Assembly (NCBI RefSeq): GCF_019798055.1
Contig: NZ_JAHOPH010000026.1
Span: 1-55,488, forward strand
Source of the DNA: Salsipaludibacter albus
GTDB taxonomy: Bacteria; Actinomycetota; Nitriliruptoria; Nitriliruptorales; Nitriliruptoraceae
Direction of reading: 5' to 3'
Length of the DNA: 55,488 nt
Positions 8,415 through 16,881 of this stretch are shown here, piece after piece. A program made the translations under genes and the position numbers. A model generated the notes under the pieces. It saw nothing but the letters and a program-made list of their open reading frames with translations, ran no database searches and was not told where the DNA came from. The stretch's first letter is position 1. Every line of letters begins with the position of its first letter.

Positions 8415-10418
8415 ATGGCCACCCATCGGATCCATCCGTCCATCGGCGTCGCACGGCTCGGCAACAGTCCGGACGAGTTCTACCTCGCCCCCGAGGCCGT
8501 CGGCGGCCTCCCGATCGCGTGTGACGCCGCGGGCAACCCGGTCCTGGACGACGACGGCGAGGTCACCTTCGTCGAGCAGTTCAAGGACGGCGTCGGGCGG
8601 ATCAAGCGGCAGGCTGCCAGGTTCCGGGTGTTCGCCGACACCGACGACGGACCGCAGCCGGTGGAGCTGGGCGACGAGGTCGAACGAATCACCTGGACCG
8701 TCCACATCGCCAACAAGAAGCCGATCTGGTTCACCTTCTCCGAGCTGCAGGGCGACCTCGAGTTCGGCCCGGACAACAGCTATGCGAACCAGGACATCCC
8801 GGTCAACAACTCCGATGTCGCCGGCGATGCCCGCAAGGCACTGATGATCGACCCCGGCCCGCGGAGCATCGAACGTCCCGGCGACGTCGTCGAGATGTCG
8901 AGCTCGACGATCCCGTCCAGCTACCGGTTCGGCTCCTTCCCGCCACGCTCCTCGGGTGGCACCCCGATCACCACGCTGGGCGAGCTGCGCATGGACGAGG
9001 CCGGCAACCTCGTGGCCCTGGGCGGCTTCGGGAACGTCGCCGGATCGGGCGACATCACCTCCTTCCGCGGCGCCAGCGGCTACCACGACGACATCGCCGA
9101 CGGGGTCGTGCTGGCCACCATCCACCTCACCAGTGGCGAGACCATCGACGCCGAACCTGCCTGGCTGCTGGTCGGCAGCCCGAAGTACGCCCCGGAGCTG
9201 GTCAACATCACCACCCTGTGGGACACCGCCTACGACACCGCCGTCCGCTTCCTCGGCGCCGCACCCGACATCTACGACCCCCAGGCCGACACCGCCGCCG
9301 CGTTCGCCCCCGACGGTGGCTACACCCCCCTGGCCGGCTTCGACCCCGACCACGTCGTGGACTTCACCACCGACGTCGAGCCGATCCTCGAACGCATCGC
9401 GGACTACCGCTGGGTCGCCGACGTCCCCTACCTCAGCGACGTCGCCACCCCGGGGTTCGACGTCACCGACGCCTCCGATGCCAACCGCGCCAACCGCGAG
9501 CGGTTCTTCCGGCTGTTCCGGGTCCCGGTCCTGCCCGAGCACTACGACGACGTCGGCCCGTCGTTCCCCAACGGCCCCAACCAACTGTTCGCCGACTCGG
9601 GCATCCCGCTCCTGCCGCTCAACTCCGGCGACAACTCGGTCACCAACGACGGCCCGATCTACAAGTTCGAGACCCTCTCGGCCACCCAGTACTTCTTCCT
9701 CCACCAATGGGCGGTCGGGTCCTTCACCGTCGGGGAGGCAGACCGCGACGACGACCTGCCGACCCGGCTCGACCGGGCCGGCATCGGCAACTGCGTCGGC
9801 GCGCCGTTCTCGCCCGGCATCGAGACGACCTGGATCACCCGCAACGCCCCGATCTACGCCGCCCTGGCCCGCCTGAAGGTCGCGCACTTCGACGGCAGCA
9901 ACGCCGACCTCGCCACCTACTACGCCGACAACGGGCTCAGCACGACCGCCGACGAGGCCGAGGGGCTGGGCTGCGAGCCGGGCGACCTCACCAAGCGCAT
10001 GGCGATCCCGTGGCAGTCCGACTTCCAGGAGTGCACGGTCCAGACCCCCAACATCACCGACCCGCTCGTCAACCAGTTCGCCGACGGCACCGGGATCGAG
10101 GTCCCGCCTGCCTACTACGTCTACTGGTGGCCACCCCAGAGCCCGATGCACGTCGTGGCGGGCAGCCTCGAACCCGAGGACCAGGTCCTCGACGCGGTCG
10201 TGTCCCGCATCGACGGCCAACCGATCATCCCGGCCGGCCAGCGCGTCCCCTACCAGCGTGGCATCGCCTCGGTCCAGGACATGCTCGACAGCTGGAGCCG
10301 GCTGGGCTTCGTCGTCGACCGCGGCCCGGCCGACATGCCCTACTTCGTCGAGACCGAGCGCAACAGCCAGGCACTGGTCCAGATCCTGCTGAACGAGCAG
10401 GCCGCGGGCGGCTCGTGA
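8415..10418 (+). CDS. lodA-like: LodA/GoxA-family CTQ-dependent amino-acid oxidase
   Basis: A 667-residue protein of the LodA family, whose characterised members (L-lysine epsilon-oxidase LodA, glycine oxidase GoxA) oxidatively deaminate amines with a self-derived cysteine tryptophylquinone, releasing aldehyde, ammonia and peroxide. Family marks: RIHPSIGVARLGNSPDEFYLA at the N-terminus, a GYHDDIADG motif, the PKYAPELVNITTLWDTAYD block, GNCVGAPFSPGIE (Cys460) and LTKRMAIPWQSDF (Trp533). Cys460 and Trp533 are the likely CTQ pair; in LodA the pair is Cys516/Trp581. Its stop overlaps the LodB-like start (GTGA), matching the obligatory lodA-lodB arrangement. It leads a biosynthetic-looking operon. 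Substrate unknown. GGAG precedes the ATG by 6 nt. Confidence 0.88.
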   Translation: MATHRIHPSIGVARLGNSPDEFYLAPEAVGGLPIACDAAGNPVLDDDGEVTFVEQFKDGVGRIKRQAARFRVFADTDDGPQPVELGDEVERITWTVHIANKKPIWFTFSELQGDLEFGPDNSYANQDIPVNNSDVAGDARKALMIDPGPRSIERPGDVVEMSSSTIPSSYRFGSFPPRSSGGTPITTLGELRMDEAGNLVALGGFGNVAGSGDITSFRGASGYHDDIADGVVLATIHLTSGETIDAEPAWLLVGSPKYAPELVNITTLWDTAYDTAVRFLGAAPDIYDPQADTAAAFAPDGGYTPLAGFDPDHVVDFTTDVEPILERIADYRWVADVPYLSDVATPGFDVTDASDANRANRERFFRLFRVPVLPEHYDDVGPSFPNGPNQLFADSGIPLLPLNSGDNSVTNDGPIYKFETLSATQYFFLHQWAVGSFTVGEADRDDDLPTRLDRAGIGNCVGAPFSPGIETTWITRNAPIYAALARLKVAHFDGSNADLATYYADNGLSTTADEAEGLGCEPGDLTKRMAIPWQSDFQECTVQTPNITDPLVNQFADGTGIEVPPAYYVYWWPPQSPMHVVAGSLEPEDQVLDAVVSRIDGQPIIPAGQRVPYQRGIASVQDMLDSWSRLGFVVDRGPADMPYFVETERNSQALVQILLNEQAAGGS

Positions 10419-11818
10419 CCCGGTCGGCCGCGTCCGGTGCCCGTGCCGGACGACCCCTCGACGCCGACGTCGTGGTGCTCGGCGGTGGCCCCGGGGGCAG
10501 CGCCGCGGGCCTGACCCTGCTGAAGCGCGACGGCCTGGCGGTCACCATGGTCGAGGCGTCCGACTACGTCGCGCCGCGGATCGGCGAGTCGCTGACCCCG
10601 GGTGTGCGGCCCCTCCTGGAGTACCTCGACGTCTGGGACGCCTTCTCCGAGGAGCAGGCCCTGGACGCCTTCGGGTCCCGGGCGGCGTGGGGCTCGGCCA
10701 CTCCTCGCGCCCTGGACTACCTGTTCACCGTGCACGGCAGCGGCTGGACGCTCGACCGCGCCCGGCTCGACCGGTTGCTGGCCGAGACCTTCCGGGCCCG
10801 GGGCGGCCGCCTCCTCACCCGCACCCGCTTCCTGGGCTGCACCCGCACGAGCGACGGCTGGGAGGTGCGGGTCCGCGTCGACCGCGACGGCCTCGGCCGC
10901 GACAGCGGCGATCCCGACGACCGGGGCGAGGAGCGGGTGCTGCGCTGCCGCTTCCTCGTCGACGCGACCGGGCGGCCCGCCCGGCTCGCCCGCTGGCTGG
11001 GGGTGGCGCGCACCGTCCACGACCGGTTGGTGGGGGTGGCCCGGGTCGGCACGCTCCCGCCCGGCCGCGACCAGGAGGCGGTCGTGCAGGTCGAGGCCTG
11101 CGCGTACGGCTGGTGGTACACCGCACCGACCCCCGGCGGCCGGCTCGCGACCGTGCTGATGAGCGACGTCGATCTGGTCCGCCGCGCCGACGCCGCCGAC
11201 CCGGACCGATGGGAGGCACTGGCCGCCGACCTGCCGATGACCCGCGAGGGACTGGACGGGGTCCGGTTCGACGACGACCCGCGGGTGTTCCCGGCCGCCA
11301 CGGCCAGCCTGCGACGGGCCGGTGGGGACGGCTGGGTCGCGGTCGGGGACGCCGTCGCCAGCCACGACCCGCTGTCGTCGACCGGCATCGCCCACGCGCT
11401 GGGCACCGGGACCCAGGCCGCGCTGGTGGTCGCGAACGCCCTGTTCGGCGACGGCCGGGCCCTGGCCGCCTACCAGCAGGCCGTGCGCGCCGACTTCGCC
11501 CGCCACCTGCGGACCCACTGGCAGGTCCACCAGGCCGAGGCGCGCTGGCCCGACGCCCCGTTCTGGGCGCGTCGCCGCACCCCCGTGACCCTCGCCCCCG
11601 ACACGGTCGTGCCCGACGTGCTGCCGGTCGGTGACAGCACGTTCGACCACTCCGTGCACCTGGATCCTCGGCTGGCCCGCCGGCTGCACGCCGCCCTGCG
11701 TCCCGGCCGCACCGCCCACGAGGTCGTGGCGGCCTTCGCGGCCGACCATCCGGGGGTCCCGGACCAACGCATCATCCTGGGCGTGCAGGAACTGGTCGGC
11801 ACGGACGCCGCACCATGA
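10415..11818 (+). CDS. lodB-like: LodB-like FAD-dependent maturation flavoprotein
   Basis: 467 residues, GTG start overlapping the LodA-like stop. The FAD dinucleotide fold is at about 19-32 (VVVLGGGPGGSAAG), with a GESLTPGVRPLLEYLDVW segment and a second FAD motif, WVAVGDAVASHDPLSSTGIAHAL, near residue 310. This places it in the tryptophan-halogenase/geranylgeranyl-reductase superfamily to which LodB belongs. LodB is needed to form the quinone cofactor in LodA and is always encoded beside it. Here it should mature the upstream oxidase. Its own stop overlaps the aldehyde dehydrogenase start (ATGA). Halogenation is unlikely, because the neighbouring LodA explains its presence and no WxWxIP motif is seen. 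Confidence 0.87.
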   Translation: MTRSAASGARAGRPLDADVVVLGGGPGGSAAGLTLLKRDGLAVTMVEASDYVAPRIGESLTPGVRPLLEYLDVWDAFSEEQALDAFGSRAAWGSATPRALDYLFTVHGSGWTLDRARLDRLLAETFRARGGRLLTRTRFLGCTRTSDGWEVRVRVDRDGLGRDSGDPDDRGEERVLRCRFLVDATGRPARLARWLGVARTVHDRLVGVARVGTLPPGRDQEAVVQVEACAYGWWYTAPTPGGRLATVLMSDVDLVRRADAADPDRWEALAADLPMTREGLDGVRFDDDPRVFPAATASLRRAGGDGWVAVGDAVASHDPLSSTGIAHALGTGTQAALVVANALFGDGRALAAYQQAVRADFARHLRTHWQVHQAEARWPDAPFWARRRTPVTLAPDTVVPDVLPVGDSTFDHSVHLDPRLARRLHAALRPGRTAHEVVAAFAADHPGVPDQRIILGVQELVGTDAAP

Positions 11819-13335
11819 CGCCCCCACCACCGGCACCGGCCACGACCACCGCGACCGCCGCGGCCTGGCACGACCGGGCCGCGTCGCTGCGTCCCGAGAC
11901 CCGGCCCTTCGTGGGCGGCCGCCACGTCGCGCCGGCCACGACCGCGACGTTCGACGACCACGATCCCGCGACCGGCCGCCGCCTCGCCACCGTCCCGGCC
12001 TGCGGGGCCGAGGACGTCGACCGGGCCGTGCGGGTCGCCCGCGAGGCGTTCGCGCACGGTCCCTGGCCGCACACCCCGCCGGCCGAGCGCAAGCGGGTGC
12101 TGCTGCGCCTGGCCGCCCTGGTCGAGGAGCACCGCGAGGAGCTCGCACTGCTCGAGACGCTCGACGTCGGCAAGCCGATCCGCGACAGCCTCGGGGTGGA
12201 CGTGCCGGCCGCGGCGCGCTGCCTCGCCTGGTACGGCGAGGCGGTCGACAAGCGCTACGGCCGGGTCGCACCGGTCGGGCCCGACGCGATCGCGACGATC
12301 ACCCACGAGCCGATCGGCGTCGTCGGCGCGATCGTGCCGTGGAACTTCCCGCTGCTGATCACCTGCTGGAAGGTCGCGCCGGCGCTGGCCGCCGGCAACT
12401 GTGTCGTGGTCAAGCCGGCGGAGCAGTCCCCGCTGTCGGCCCTGCGGCTGGCCGCACTGGCGACCGAGGCCGGGCTGCCCGACGGTGTGCTCAACGTGGT
12501 GCCGGGCACCGGGGACGCCGGGAAGGCGCTGGGGCTGCACCCGGACGTCGACATGGTGGCGTTCACCGGCTCGACCGCGACCGGGCGTCGCCTGCTGACC
12601 TACGCCGCCCGGTCCAACCTCAAACGGGTCACCCTCGAGTGCGGCGGCAAGTCCCCGCAGGTCGTCCTGGCCGACTGTGGCGACCTCGACCGGGTCGCCG
12701 CCGCGGTGTCCCGCGGGATCTTCTTCAACCAGGGCCAGGTCTGCAACGCCGGCTCGCGCCTGGTTGTCGAGCCGTCGGTCAGGGACGAGCTGGTCGAACG
12801 GGTCGTGGCCCGTGCCCGCGAACTGGTCCCGGGGGACCCGCTCGACCCGGCCACCGAGCTGGGCGCGATCGTCGACCACGCCCAGCTCGACGGGATCCTC
12901 GACCACGTCGCCGGTGCCGAGGCGGCCGGCGCCCGCCTGCTGGTCGGCGGTGACCGGGCGCGCACCGACAGCGGGGGCAGCTTCGTCACCCCGGCGGTGC
13001 TGGACCGGGTGACGCCGGACATGGCGATCGCGCAGGAGGAGGTGTTCGGTCCCGTGCTGGTGGCGATCGACGCCGACGACACCGACGACGCCATCCGGAT
13101 CGCCAACGACAGCCGCTACGGGCTGGCCGCCGGGGTGTGGAGCCGCGACATCGGCCGGGCGAACCGCGTGGCCGCCCGCCTGCGGGCCGGGATCGTGTGG
13201 ATCAACGGCTTCGACAAGCACGACCTGTCGACCCCGTTCGGCGGCGTCGGCGAGACCGGCTCGTCCCGGGACAAGTCCTTGGCGGCGCTCGACGCCTACG
13301 GCGAGGTCAAGGTGACCTGGGCCGAGCTCACGTGA
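11815..13335 (+). CDS. NAD(P)-dependent aldehyde dehydrogenase
   Basis: A full-length 506-residue ALDH. The general base Glu275 lies in LECGGKSP and the nucleophile Cys310 in NQGQVCNAGSR; the IVPWNFPLL cofactor segment and FTGSTATGR loop are intact. The LECGGKSP form recalls the PuuC/betaine-aldehyde group acting on amino-aldehydes. Placed directly after a LodA-LodB pair and overlapping both neighbours by 4 nt, it most likely oxidises the aldehyde made by the LodA-like oxidase to an acid. That pairing is inference; the enzyme class is seen. Confidence 0.88.
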   Translation: MTPPPPAPATTTATAAAWHDRAASLRPETRPFVGGRHVAPATTATFDDHDPATGRRLATVPACGAEDVDRAVRVAREAFAHGPWPHTPPAERKRVLLRLAALVEEHREELALLETLDVGKPIRDSLGVDVPAAARCLAWYGEAVDKRYGRVAPVGPDAIATITHEPIGVVGAIVPWNFPLLITCWKVAPALAAGNCVVVKPAEQSPLSALRLAALATEAGLPDGVLNVVPGTGDAGKALGLHPDVDMVAFTGSTATGRRLLTYAARSNLKRVTLECGGKSPQVVLADCGDLDRVAAAVSRGIFFNQGQVCNAGSRLVVEPSVRDELVERVVARARELVPGDPLDPATELGAIVDHAQLDGILDHVAGAEAAGARLLVGGDRARTDSGGSFVTPAVLDRVTPDMAIAQEEVFGPVLVAIDADDTDDAIRIANDSRYGLAAGVWSRDIGRANRVAARLRAGIVWINGFDKHDLSTPFGGVGETGSSRDKSLAALDAYGEVKVTWAELT

Positions 13336-14636
13336 GCGCCCCGTCCGCCACGACCCTGACCGGGCCGGCGCTGGAGGCGGCCGCGGACCGGTTCGGCACG
13401 CCGCTGTACGCCTACGACCTGGACGGCGTGGCAAGGCGCCACCGGGAACTGGTGGCCGCGCTGCCCGACCGGGTCGACGTCCACTACGCGCTGAAGGCCA
13501 ACGGCAGCCTCGCGATCGCGGCCCGGCTGGCCGACGTGGGGTGCGGCGTGGACGTGTGCTCGCGTGGCGAGCTGGCGGTCGCCGCTGCGGCCGGGTTCCC
13601 GGGTGTCCGGACCCTGTTCACCGGGCCCGGCAAGTCCGACCACGACCTCCACGAGGCGGTCGCCCGTGGGCTCCGCTGGGTCGTGGTGGAGTCCGTGGGC
13701 GAAGCACGACGGCTCGCTGCCGTCGCCACCGCGGCCGGTCGGCGACAGCCGGTGCTGGTCCGGATCGCGCCCCGGACACTGCCGTCCGGTGACGGGCTGG
13801 TCGTGGCCGTGCCGGGTGGCAAGTTCGGGGTCGACGAGGAGGAGGCGGCCGAGGCGCTGGCGACCGTCGCCGCGCTGCCGGGCCTGCGGCTGGAGGGCAT
13901 CCACGTCTACGCCGAGTCGTGCGTGCTGGACGCCGGGCACATGCTCGCGATCAACACCCGGACGATCGCGCTGGCACGCGACCTGGCCGCCCACGACCTG
14001 CCGATCACCGTCGTCGACCTCGGTGGCGGGCTCGGCGTCCCGTACGGACCCGACGAACCGGCCTTCGACCTGGCGCGCTGGTCCGACGGGTTGCGCTCGC
14101 GGTGTCGCGACCTGCCGGCGGACTGGCGGCTGGTGGTCGAACCGGGTCGGTTCCTGGTCGCCGAGCACGGCACGTACGTCGTCACGGTGCTGGACGTCAA
14201 GACCGTCGCCGGCCGTCGGCACGTCATCGTCGACGGCGGGATCAACCAGCTGTACCGGCCGAACATGGCCCGGGCCAACCGCCAGGTCGAGGTGCTGGGC
14301 GCGTCGGGACAGGACGGGCCCACGGAGGTGGTGGCCATCGCCGGACCACTGCTGTCGGGCGAGGACGTGCTGGCCACCGACGTCGAACTGCCAAGGATCG
14401 ACCCGGGCCGACGCCTGGCCTTCCGATCCTGTGGTGCCTACGGCTACGGCCACGGCATCAGCGGGTTCTCGGCCCACCCGACGCCGGCCGAGGTGGCGAT
14501 CGAACCGGACGGCTCGGCGTGGGAGATGCGTCGTCGGGGTCGGCCGTCCGCCGCGCTGCGCGACCAGTCGGCCACACCGTCGGCCACGCCGGAGAGGACA
14601 CCTGCCATGGACCGGACCACGAGCCACGCGCCATGA
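13332..14636 (+). CDS. PLP-dependent decarboxylase, DAP/ornithine-decarboxylase fold
   Basis: 434 residues of the fold-type III (alanine-racemase-like) decarboxylase family that includes diaminopimelate decarboxylase. PLP lysine is Lys55 in YALKANGS; VDVCSRGELAVA, the glycine loop DLGGGLGVPYG, the EPGRFLVAE phosphate-binding block and CGAYGYG near the C-terminus are all present. A GTG start overlaps the ALDH stop. The specificity loop residues differ from lysine-pathway LysA as far as can be judged, and no lysine genes surround it. It probably removes the carboxylate from a modified amino acid made by the upstream enzymes. A Ser/Thr/Pro-rich tail of about 25 residues follows the catalytic domain. 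Confidence 0.85.
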   Translation: MSAPSATTLTGPALEAAADRFGTPLYAYDLDGVARRHRELVAALPDRVDVHYALKANGSLAIAARLADVGCGVDVCSRGELAVAAAAGFPGVRTLFTGPGKSDHDLHEAVARGLRWVVVESVGEARRLAAVATAAGRRQPVLVRIAPRTLPSGDGLVVAVPGGKFGVDEEEAAEALATVAALPGLRLEGIHVYAESCVLDAGHMLAINTRTIALARDLAAHDLPITVVDLGGGLGVPYGPDEPAFDLARWSDGLRSRCRDLPADWRLVVEPGRFLVAEHGTYVVTVLDVKTVAGRRHVIVDGGINQLYRPNMARANRQVEVLGASGQDGPTEVVAIAGPLLSGEDVLATDVELPRIDPGRRLAFRSCGAYGYGHGISGFSAHPTPAEVAIEPDGSAWEMRRRGRPSAALRDQSATPSATPERTPAMDRTTSHAP

Positions 14637-15571
14637 GGGTCGTCTTCCTGGGGTTCCAGACCTGGGGCCACGCGAGCCTGCAGGCGTTGCTCGGCGACCC
14701 CTGCCACACGGTGCCGTTGGTGGTCACCCATCCCCAGAGCAGCCACCCCTACGAGGCGATCTGGGCCGACTCGGTCGCCGACCTCGCCACCGCCGCCGGC
14801 ATCGAGGTCGTCACCGCCCGCTCCGCCAACCTCGACGGCGTGCCGGAACGCATCGCCGCGGCCGCGCCGGACGTGCTGGTGTGCTCCGACTGGCGGACGT
14901 GGGTGGCCCCGGAGGTGCTCCGACTCGCCCGTCACGGGGGGGTCAACATCCACGACGGCTTCCTCCCCGAGTACGGCGGCTTCGCACCGATCAACTGGGC
15001 GATCAGCCGTGGCGAGGAGCAGGTCGGCCTGACCGCGCACTGCATGGACGAGGAGTTCGACCTCGGCGACGTCGTCGTGCAGCGTTGCCTGCCGGTCGCC
15101 CCCACCGACACGGCCACCGACGTGGCGCGGCGGGTGTTCGCCCTGCTCCCCGCCGTGACCCTGGAGGCGCTCGACCGCGTCGCCGACCCCGGCTTCCGGC
15201 CCGTGCCCCAGGACCGCGGCCGGGCGACCTTCTTCCACAAGCGCAGTGACCGCGACGCCCGGATCGACTGGTCGCTGCCGGCCGTCGAGGTCCACGACCT
15301 CGTCCGGGCGCAGTCCGATCCCTACCCCAACGCCCACGCCCGCCACGCCGGCCGGCGCCTGCACGTCAAGCGGGCCTCGTTGCCCGACCAGGCCTGGTGC
15401 GGCACGCCGGGCCGGGTGTTCGCCCGCGTCGGCGACGGTGTCGTCGTGCTGTGTGGCCCCGGTCGTGACGACCCGGGACAGGGACTGGTGCTCGAGGTCG
15501 TGCAGCCCGAGGGCGGCGACGCCATGCCCGCGGCCGCCTGGTTCCGGACCATGGGTGACTACCTCGACTAG
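14633..15571 (+). CDS. Formyltransferase (Met-tRNA formyltransferase-like)
   Basis: 312 residues, ATGA overlap with the decarboxylase gene. The catalytic trio of 10-formyl-tetrahydrofolate formyltransferases is present at Asn105, His107 (NIHDG) and Asp143 (DEEFDLGDV), almost the numbering of E. coli Fmt (Asn106, His108, Asp144). A C-terminal domain of the Fmt_C type follows (WSLPAVEVHDLVRAQSDPYPN). The usual SLLPxxRG loop reads GFLPEYGG, a difference at the substrate side. It is therefore probably not the housekeeping Fmt but transfers or removes a formyl group on a small amine of this pathway, as related sugar and hydroxyornithine formyltransferases do. Substrate unknown. Confidence 0.82.
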   Translation: MRVVFLGFQTWGHASLQALLGDPCHTVPLVVTHPQSSHPYEAIWADSVADLATAAGIEVVTARSANLDGVPERIAAAAPDVLVCSDWRTWVAPEVLRLARHGGVNIHDGFLPEYGGFAPINWAISRGEEQVGLTAHCMDEEFDLGDVVVQRCLPVAPTDTATDVARRVFALLPAVTLEALDRVADPGFRPVPQDRGRATFFHKRSDRDARIDWSLPAVEVHDLVRAQSDPYPNAHARHAGRRLHVKRASLPDQAWCGTPGRVFARVGDGVVVLCGPGRDDPGQGLVLEVVQPEGGDAMPAAAWFRTMGDYLD

Positions 15572-15642
15572 GCCCCCCACGCCCGACTCGCCCCGACCCG
15601 CGCGACCCCGCGCGCACCACCCGCACCACCGAGGAGGAATCC

Positions 15643-16881
15643 GTGAAGATCGTGCTGGCCTACTCCGGCGGCCTCGACACGTCCGTCGCGCTGCCGTGGC
15701 TCCGCGAGCACCACGACGCCGAGGTGATCGCCTACTGCGCCGACCTGGGCCAGGCGGATGACCTCGCCACGGTCGAACGACGGGCGTGGCAGGCCGGCGC
15801 GGCCGACGTCGTCATCGAGGACCTGCGCGACACCTACCTCCGCGACCACGTGTTCCGGGCACTGCGGGCCGGTGCCGCCTACGAGGACCGCTACCTGATG
15901 GCGGCGCCGCTGGGTCGCCCGCTGATCGGCCGGCGGCTGGTCGAGATCGCCCACGAACGCGGCGCGACCGCCGTCGCCCACGGCTCCACCGGCAAGGGAA
16001 ACGACCAGGTGCGCTTCTACGCCGCCGCCGTCGCACACGACCCGGGCATCCGGGTCATCGGCCCGGCCATGGAGTGGGAGCTGGGCTCCCGGGCCGACGA
16101 ACTGGCCTACGCCCGCCGGCACGGGATCGAGGTCGATGCCACCGACGACAGCCCGTTCAGCATGGACGGCAGCCTGTGGGGCACCAGCACCGAACTCGGT
16201 CCGCTGGACGACCCGTCGTGGCCACCCGACGAGCGGGTCTTCCAGCTCACCACCAGCCCGCGCGAGGCCCCCGACACGCCGCACCGGCTCACGCTGGAGT
16301 TCGTCGCGGGCACGCCGGTGGCCCTGGACGGCGAACGCCTCGACCCCGTGCCACTGGTCGAGCGGCTCAACACGATCGCCGGGCGCCACGGCATCGGGCG
16401 GGTCGACATCGTCGAGAACAGCCTGCTGGGCATCAAGTCCCGGGCCATCTACGAGAGCCCGGCCGGCACGGTGCTGCACCTCGCGCACCGCGAGCTCGAG
16501 AGCCTGGTCATCGATCGCGACACCCTGCACCACAAGGGAGAGGTCGGCCGGAGATATGCCGAGCTCGTCTACTACGGACTGTGGTACTCCCCGTTGCGGG
16601 AGGCGCTGGATGCGTTCGTCGACGTGACCCAGGCGCGGGTCGACGGCACGGTCGACCTCGAGCTGTACAAGGGCACCGCGACCGTGCTGGGCCGGCGCTC
16701 CGACAACGCGCTGTACAGCCACTCGCTCAGCGCCCACGACGACCGCGACCAGTTCGCCCACCACCTCGGCGAGGGCTTCTCCTACGTCTGGTCGATGCCG
16801 TTGCGGCTGCGTGCGCTGACCGGCGACCCCCGCACGCCCGCGTCCGCCACGACCGGGTCGGTGCCCGGGATGCAGCCGTGA
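15643..16881 (+). CDS. argG-like: Argininosuccinate-synthase-like ligase
   Basis: 412 residues, GTG start 5 nt after GAGGAGG. The PP-loop AYSGGLDTS, GSTGKGNDQVRF, SPFSMDGSLWG, IYESPAGT and ESLVIDR blocks define the argininosuccinate synthase family, which adenylates a ureido group and couples it to aspartate. Aspartate-side residues (GNDQVRF) are kept. The region around the citrulline site differs from typical enzymes: MAAPLGRP where many have LGTSLARP, and SMDGSLWGTSTE where many have SMDENLxHISYE. No argH or other arginine gene is near. It closes the LodA operon, 71 nt after the formyltransferase, and likely builds a new C-N bond on a different substrate. Confidence 0.83.
   Translation: MKIVLAYSGGLDTSVALPWLREHHDAEVIAYCADLGQADDLATVERRAWQAGAADVVIEDLRDTYLRDHVFRALRAGAAYEDRYLMAAPLGRPLIGRRLVEIAHERGATAVAHGSTGKGNDQVRFYAAAVAHDPGIRVIGPAMEWELGSRADELAYARRHGIEVDATDDSPFSMDGSLWGTSTELGPLDDPSWPPDERVFQLTTSPREAPDTPHRLTLEFVAGTPVALDGERLDPVPLVERLNTIAGRHGIGRVDIVENSLLGIKSRAIYESPAGTVLHLAHRELESLVIDRDTLHHKGEVGRRYAELVYYGLWYSPLREALDAFVDVTQARVDGTVDLELYKGTATVLGRRSDNALYSHSLSAHDDRDQFAHHLGEGFSYVWSMPLRLRALTGDPRTPASATTGSVPGMQP

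Follow-up and report, generated by a model that had tools for sequence, protein, structure and literature searches.

What is a LodA-type amine oxidase doing in a run of overlapping and adjacent genes that ends in a formyltransferase and a ligase resembling argininosuccinate synthase? The question is raised by the window analysed here, a stretch of 55,488 nucleotides from Salsipaludibacter albus (contig NZ_JAHOPH010000026.1), where six genes encode LodA, a cysteine tryptophylquinone (CTQ)-dependent oxidase, the flavin adenine dinucleotide (FAD)-dependent maturase LodB, an aldehyde dehydrogenase (ALDH), a pyridoxal phosphate (PLP) fold-III decarboxylase-like enzyme (DC), a formyltransferase (Fmt) and an ArgG-like ligase (Table 1). 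The set is a real, recurring and sporadically distributed enzyme unit, with DC-Fmt-ArgG as its core cassette; it probably makes a modified amino acid or amine of novel identity, perhaps via a chemical step not yet described. A first-pass annotation, made from the DNA letters, had called the locus a candidate new pathway. This holds in that the gene set is real and recurs; the order of steps it proposed and the role it gave to the ALDH fail.

The set recurs in distant genomes. A LodA alignment scan of our contig collection gave 460 confirmed loci, the best 80 of which were kept, and the window proteins were compared by tblastn with these 80 loci and three plasmid loci. DC, Fmt and ArgG stand beside LodA-LodB at three of the 80, in Pseudomonas resinovorans (L031), P. 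boanensis (L033) and Paraburkholderia sp. NMBU_R16 (L035); the other 77 have no linked cassette, weaker tblastn matches (ALDH in L029, L053 and L074; DC, 25%, in L092) not being counted. When 24 of the 80 LodA-bearing genomes were searched with Fmt, matches at E <= 1e-40 were obtained in 12 and at E <= 1e-130 in five, namely the three linked genomes again and two strong copies not beside LodA, in an Acidobacteria metagenome-assembled genome (MAG; 467.8 bits) and in Sorangium cellulosum (438.1 bits); matches weaker than 1e-130 were assumed to be other formyltransferases. Both of these genomes have a bare DC-Fmt-ArgG operon and carry LodA elsewhere. In the stretch of about 19 kb around each cassette, tblastn gave no match to LodA, LodB or ALDH, and no additional biosynthetic gene was recognised by eye in the two stretches. 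The linked form is also present in G459 and G461, which belong to the same genus as P. resinovorans; of 18 genomes in this genus, four have the cassette Fmt. The total is eight cassettes, six linked to LodA-LodB and two unlinked.

The arrangement of the genes is variable. The order is LodA-LodB-ALDH-DC-Fmt-ArgG in the window; in Pseudomonas a divergent ArgG is followed by DC-Fmt-LodA-LodB; in Paraburkholderia DC-Fmt diverges from ArgG-LodA-LodB; and the Acidobacteria and Sorangium operons read DC-Fmt-ArgG. Five of the six families are found together again in other phyla, in differing gene orders, which makes chance an unlikely explanation. The expectation that all six would co-occur in one order was thus borne out in part: five are found together elsewhere, the order varies, and ALDH is present in one cassette of eight, with no tblastn match in the loci of the other seven. 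LodA heads the set in the window, follows Fmt in Pseudomonas and ArgG in Paraburkholderia, and is unlinked in two genomes; the order is not conserved, and therefore reading it as a reaction sequence, as had been done, has no basis. Treating the ALDH as an essential step is equally unsupported, as it belongs to the window's version alone.

The core enzymes are additional to those of primary metabolism. In the S. albus genome (4.25 Mb in 79 contigs), contig C22 carries a second ArgG (455 bits), downstream of an open reading frame (ORF) judged by eye to encode a carbamoyltransferase, and an fmt over its cut-off (243 bits), and contig C24 carries a lysA over its cut-off. That the set's ArgG, DC and Fmt are the sole housekeeping copies is ruled out by these genes, and the first-pass view that the set works together apart from ordinary primary metabolism is backed by the recurrence and by the separate housekeeping copies.

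The cassette ligases have diverged from other ArgGs at specific positions. In an 18-row tree the ArgGs of all eight cassettes fall into a single clade (99/96), in which the window protein groups with that of the Acidobacteria MAG (93/95). In window numbering, N177 is changed to Ser or Thr and R260 to Ser in all eight, both residues being invariant in ten other ArgGs, even in one that is only about 30% identical; G268, nearly invariant elsewhere (Glu in one of the ten), is changed to Ala. The cassette-only residues of the window protein are S177, S260 and A268. Its P89 and Y126 are common to some other ArgGs: those of Rhodococcus fascians and two Streptomyces plasmids share P89 and Y/F126 and retain N177 and R260, and the distant second ArgG of the S. 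albus genome likewise carries Pro and Tyr there. From UniProt-style annotation, we take Y84, S89, T116, N120, D121, R124, S173, S182, E258 and Y270 to be the citrulline and aspartate contacts, T116, N120 and D121 presumably forming the aspartate site. The cassette proteins keep Y84, T116 (Ser in Sorangium), N120, D121, R124, S173, S182, E258 and Y270, and Ser89 is replaced by Pro. Compared with argininosuccinate synthase of the Thermus 1j1z type (49% identity), the window protein has the same residues at every aspartate contact and, Ser89 excepted, at every citrulline contact; it differs in the three cassette-only residues, and in the window no arginine genes are linked to its own. Could it nevertheless be a true argininosuccinate synthase paralogue, the set being a loose arginine or polyamine accessory without new chemistry? 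Its retained contacts and its scores over both argG cut-offs (TIGR00032, 449 against 268 bits; PRK00509, 510 against 334 bits) speak for this. We nevertheless regard it as unlikely, since the genome has its separate argG behind the putative carbamoyltransferase, N177 and R260 are altered throughout the cassette proteins, and a relative of the R. fascians ArgH was not found nearby.

The R. fascians ArgG, a sister group to the cassette clade (89/97, not starred), adjoins a formyltransferase. On plasmid pFiD188 (L128:7487-10760), three genes are consecutive, argH, an accessory argG and one for a formyltransferase of 191 aa, with asparagine-synthase-domain and TauD/TfdA genes downstream; we take this operon to be the att locus. 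It differs from the cassette in that its formyltransferase has only weak similarity to those of the cassettes, ArgH is present, and neither DC nor LodA is annotated in the 19-kb stretch. It is an independent pairing of ArgG and formyltransferase (with ArgH), which we read as following the same logic. The argG genes of the two Streptomyces plasmids (L126:9001-10173 and L127:9001-10161) are 92% identical and group with that of R. fascians; in L126 the ORF after argG has a weak protein-kinase match, and no further arginine gene is annotated in the stretch. The ArgG search of plasmids gave 35 records, and no cassette was recognised in the four examined among the best 15 of these 35.

For the formyltransferase, the relatives point to a likely acceptor. 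The window Fmt scores below the fmt cut-off (134 against 201.5 bits), and N105, H107 and D143, which we take to be the catalytic Asn, His and Asp, are invariant in all eight cassette Fmts. Its best plasmid matches among those listed are three actinobacterial Fmts of 50-51% identity; the search gave 108 records, the best 30 were considered, and in three examined Fmt is the only gene of the set. One of the three relatives, about 51% identical over the full length, adjoins a SidA-type monooxygenase, argB, iron-uptake genes and a non-ribosomal peptide synthetase (NRPS) in an annotated siderophore-type locus. Siderophore-type formyltransferases formylate hydroxyornithine. The setting of this relative makes an ornithine-type side-chain amine, by analogy, a likely acceptor of the cassette Fmt. 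Unlike siderophore loci, the ORFs of L031, part of L033, L035, L120 and L121 include no monooxygenase or NRPS recognised by eye, the flanks not having been domain-searched.

Considering these observations, we tentatively propose that the DC-Fmt-ArgG cassette, the LodA/LodB pair and the local ALDH form a small accessory biosynthetic unit with formamide-aspartate chemistry, whose substrates, step order and product we infer as follows. First, Fmt would formylate the side-chain amine of ornithine or lysine. Second, the ArgG-like enzyme would adenylate that formamide and join aspartate to it; the product would be a formamidine analogue of argininosuccinate. DC would remove the alpha-carboxylate, LodA would convert the primary amine left after decarboxylation to an aldehyde, and in the window the ALDH would oxidise the aldehyde to an acid. 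Decarboxylation followed by LodA oxidation would amount to an agmatine-type logic, with a PuuC-type ALDH in the window. Formamide activation and aspartate addition are proposed because of the Fmt relatives, because N5-formylornithine is citrulline minus the terminal NH2 and hence a citrulline isostere, and because no carbamoyltransferase is among the genes of the set. It is possible, if doubtful, that the cassette ArgG clade as a whole takes an N-formyl amine where other ArgGs take a ureido group, so that an ATP-dependent formamidine route parallel to arginine biosynthesis would have been recruited from it and tied to CTQ oxidation.

A different use of the same formamide can be imagined. The window ligase is matched by the ArgG-fold "nitrile synthetase" chains 9lei/9leh, and by comparison with this ArgG-like enzyme, reported to make nitriles, it might dehydrate the formamide to an isocyanide with no part for aspartate. 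We consider this highly improbable, as the 9lei match (78 bits) is far weaker than that to a true ArgG (416 bits) and the presumed aspartate site is kept, with T116 changed to Ser in one of the eight. A formimidoyl group comparable to the formamidine proposed here is added in the FAD-dependent N-formimidoylation by Orf1 (BD-12). Orf1 is reported to depend on FAD and to take the group from glycine (PMC10156733), in contrast to the formation from a formamide with ATP that is proposed here.

The DC sequences are consistent with a modified substrate. The window DC scores 273.5 bits against the lysA cut-off of 297.9. In a comparison of the eight cassette DCs with the genome's LysA, the PLP lysine K55 is kept in all eight, and the LysA stretch GKHCESGD reads GPLLSGED, GCLPTPQD, GCLATPAD, GPLPSPQD or GALPLPYD. 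Both the Cys and the Glu of CESGD are thus absent from all eight; the usual Cys position is L, P or A (L341 in the window), and five have a Cys two positions before it. The best solved-structure match is BtrK, the L-glutamyl-ACP (acyl carrier protein) decarboxylase of butirosin, which has a Cys in GPLCTPED where the window reads GPLLSGED; no ACP gene was recognised by eye. The enzyme is therefore not a typical diaminopimelate decarboxylase, as the DapDC-type label first given to it would imply. On sequence grounds, the loss of the LysA CES may reflect a substrate with a masked distal amine, with which it is consistent. The DC tree has a single outgroup row and is uninformative on a cassette clade; among 116 plasmid records, the best 15 are all below 40% identity.

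The oxidase is a bona fide member of its family by score. The window LodA reaches 621 bits against a cut-off of 600 for the NCBIfam LodA equivalog NF038172 (lysine-6-oxidase), and in an alignment to 3weu/2ymw its C540 and W572 match LodA C516 and W581, which we take to be the residues that form the CTQ cofactor. LodB is the best model for its partner, which scores 270 bits, below the equivalog cut-off of 400; at 467 aa, the window LodB is longer than its counterparts in the other five linked cassettes (ORFs of 365-411 aa). The ALDH matches PF00171 with 560 bits and has PuuC as best NCBIfam model, below cut-off (598 against 850 bits). PuuC oxidises N-acylated aminobutyraldehyde. Two Colwellia loci have an ALDH match near LodA-LodB with the rest of the set absent: in L074:413-5501 (37%) it lies about 0.5 kb downstream of LodB, and in L053:6485-11812 (41%) it lies 2.1 kb upstream of LodA on the opposite strand. 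Elsewhere in the S. albus genome, an ORF at G000:C20:40740-41960, in an open frame of 946 aa, shows piecemeal similarity to the LodA profile, far below the cut-off, and is possibly a second CTQ-type oxidase; an ORF on G058:C159 is similar to it.

Given a lysine-6-oxidase score, an ALDH gene that overlaps both neighbours and a DC whose nearest solved relative decarboxylates glutamyl-ACP, the genes might be read with lysine first, close to the first-pass annotation: LodA would convert lysine to allysine, ALDH would make 2-aminoadipate, DC would yield 5-aminovalerate, Fmt would formylate this and ArgG would join it to aspartate. We find this improbable, with no ALDH match beside the other seven cassettes and the core standing without LodA or ALDH at two loci. 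Given these same cassettes, the pathway at large cannot depend on oxidation plus a linked ALDH at its start; an unlinked ALDH may take part.

Does LodA belong to the pathway at all? The window resembles the Marinomonas mediterranea LodA/LodB operon in its LodA equivalog score, its aligned CTQ residues and the LodB-type maturase directly downstream; it differs by four further overlapping or adjacent genes. The Marinomonas enzyme is reported to be a lysine-epsilon oxidase, and oxidases of this kind to owe an antimicrobial character to peroxide (PMC3948610, PMC4417212). LodA/LodB could accordingly be a hydrogen-peroxide generator here too, with the cassette merely lying next to it or supplying the amine that it oxidises, and the 77 LodA loci without a linked cassette would agree with this. 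We think it rather improbable, as LodAs of different clades adjoin the cassette in three gene arrangements and the window genes overlap. On plasmids, LodA gave 32 records, none of at least 60% identity; among the best 20 of these 32, three were examined, and the LodA-LodB pair of a Pseudoalteromonas plasmid stands there without the remaining genes of the set.

Several unrelated LodAs are found beside the cassette. Forcing the cassette-linked LodAs into one clade costs 497 log-likelihood units (approximately unbiased test, p-AU 0.0002). In an 82-row LodA tree with all rows labelled, which omits L017 and L064 (long branches) and L016 (a near-copy), the label "linked" needs three changes, and also three with starred branches only (quick method). 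The window LodA groups with that of a Xanthomonadaceae MAG (about 75%; 99, starred), in which the cassette Fmt was not found. Therefore LodA and the cassette have joined more than once, or LodA has been exchanged beside a standing cassette; the trees do not discriminate between the two. A LodA family search of the window's class gave any match in 2 of 66 genomes, over cut-off only in S. albus itself; LodA in 396 genomes of the phylum (E <= 1e-30) and Fmt in 61 relatives (E <= 1e-40) likewise returned S. albus alone. The set is therefore foreign-looking in its lineage, and the three-gene cassette, sporadic in its distribution, has probably spread horizontally.

Outside linked loci, the cassette Fmt occurs in 2 of 71 LodA-bearing genomes and in 0 of 1,093 other sampled genomes (Fisher one-sided p = 0.004), in a post hoc test that compares groups of different taxonomy and in which the LodA status of the background was not determined. 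The 2/71 combines 2/21 from the Fmt search of 24 genomes with 0/50 from a second search, made in 50 out of the 56 loci that were left and lacking an internal positive control. The background, which excludes the index genomes, comprises 0/310 in the Sorangium phylum and 0/326 in the Acidobacteria phylum (both 1e-90), 0/397 in the Paraburkholderia family (1e-80) and 0/60 relatives of the window's genome (1e-40); P. resinovorans and its congeners (18 genomes, four with a cassette, linked in each case) were also left out. The co-occurrence supports, without proving, a dependence of the cassette on LodA.

Besides the design of this test, several points weigh against our proposal. Most LodA genomes are without the cassette, 50 of 50 in one search and 19 of 24 in the other. 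Characterised LodA acts on lysine itself. The curated models score the ArgG-like protein as a full argininosuccinate synthase, and a relative of the R. fascians ArgH was not found in the window or the cassette loci, leaving the aspartate adduct without an evident next enzyme. The Fmt tree does not resolve the cassette Fmts as a clade apart from plasmid Fmts (26/0), and thus no cassette Fmt clade is claimed. Finally, judging from its sequence, DC without the usual Cys may not be a simple decarboxylase.

We found no paper describing a LodA-DC-Fmt-ArgG set, nor any literature on argininosuccinate synthase with formamidine or with formylornithine, in a literature search that left out most subscription journals. 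lodA-like genes were reported in 140 of 14,983 bacterial genomes by the LodA distribution study, in whose main text a word search found "argininosuccinate", "formyl" and "decarboxylase" absent (PMC4417212). The core enzymes are easily mistaken for housekeeping ones, as the ligase passes argininosuccinate synthase cut-offs and relatives of the Fmt carry the label methionyl-tRNA formyltransferase, so that genome annotation conceals the pathway. Should the formamide and aspartate step prove right, it would be a use of the argininosuccinate synthase fold not found in the literature searched, and LodA-type quinoproteins would gain a biosynthetic role beyond peroxide release.

The layout of the window is as first described: the coordinates and frames hold, and the co-directional genes, 4-nt overlaps and 71-nt gap with a strong ribosome site were confirmed. 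Each of the four junctions among the first five genes is a 4-nt start/stop overlap, GTGA (as at LodA/LodB) or ATGA, and the ArgG-like gene starts 71 nt past the Fmt stop, preceded by GAGGAGG. The word "fused" in the earlier title is wrong; these are six separate ORFs, most of them overlapping. The family assignments were upheld by Pfam and NCBIfam, with LodA and ArgG over cut-off and DC, Fmt and LodB below their equivalog cut-offs.

Table 1. The six genes of the set in the window
Gene product	Coordinates	Strand	Length (aa)	Family model
LodA-type CTQ-dependent amine oxidase	8415..10418	+	667	NF038172
LodB-type FAD-dependent maturase	10415..11818	+	467	maturase_LodB (best NCBIfam model)
Aldehyde dehydrogenase (ALDH)	11815..13335	+	506	PF00171
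PLP fold-III decarboxylase-like enzyme (DC), core cassette gene 1	13332..14636	+	434	PF02784/PF00278
Formyltransferase (Fmt), core cassette gene 2	14633..15571	+	312	PF00551+PF02911
ArgG-like ligase, core cassette gene 3	15643..16881	+	412	TIGR00032

A cluster for a ribosomally synthesised and post-translationally modified peptide or an NRPS product was set aside, none being recognised by eye. Seven neighbouring ORFs were scanned with Pfam, and none appears to belong to the set. Those upstream are a TetR-type regulator and three ORFs without a Pfam match; those downstream encode a TMEM175-domain protein, a glyoxalase-domain protein and a MarR-type regulator.

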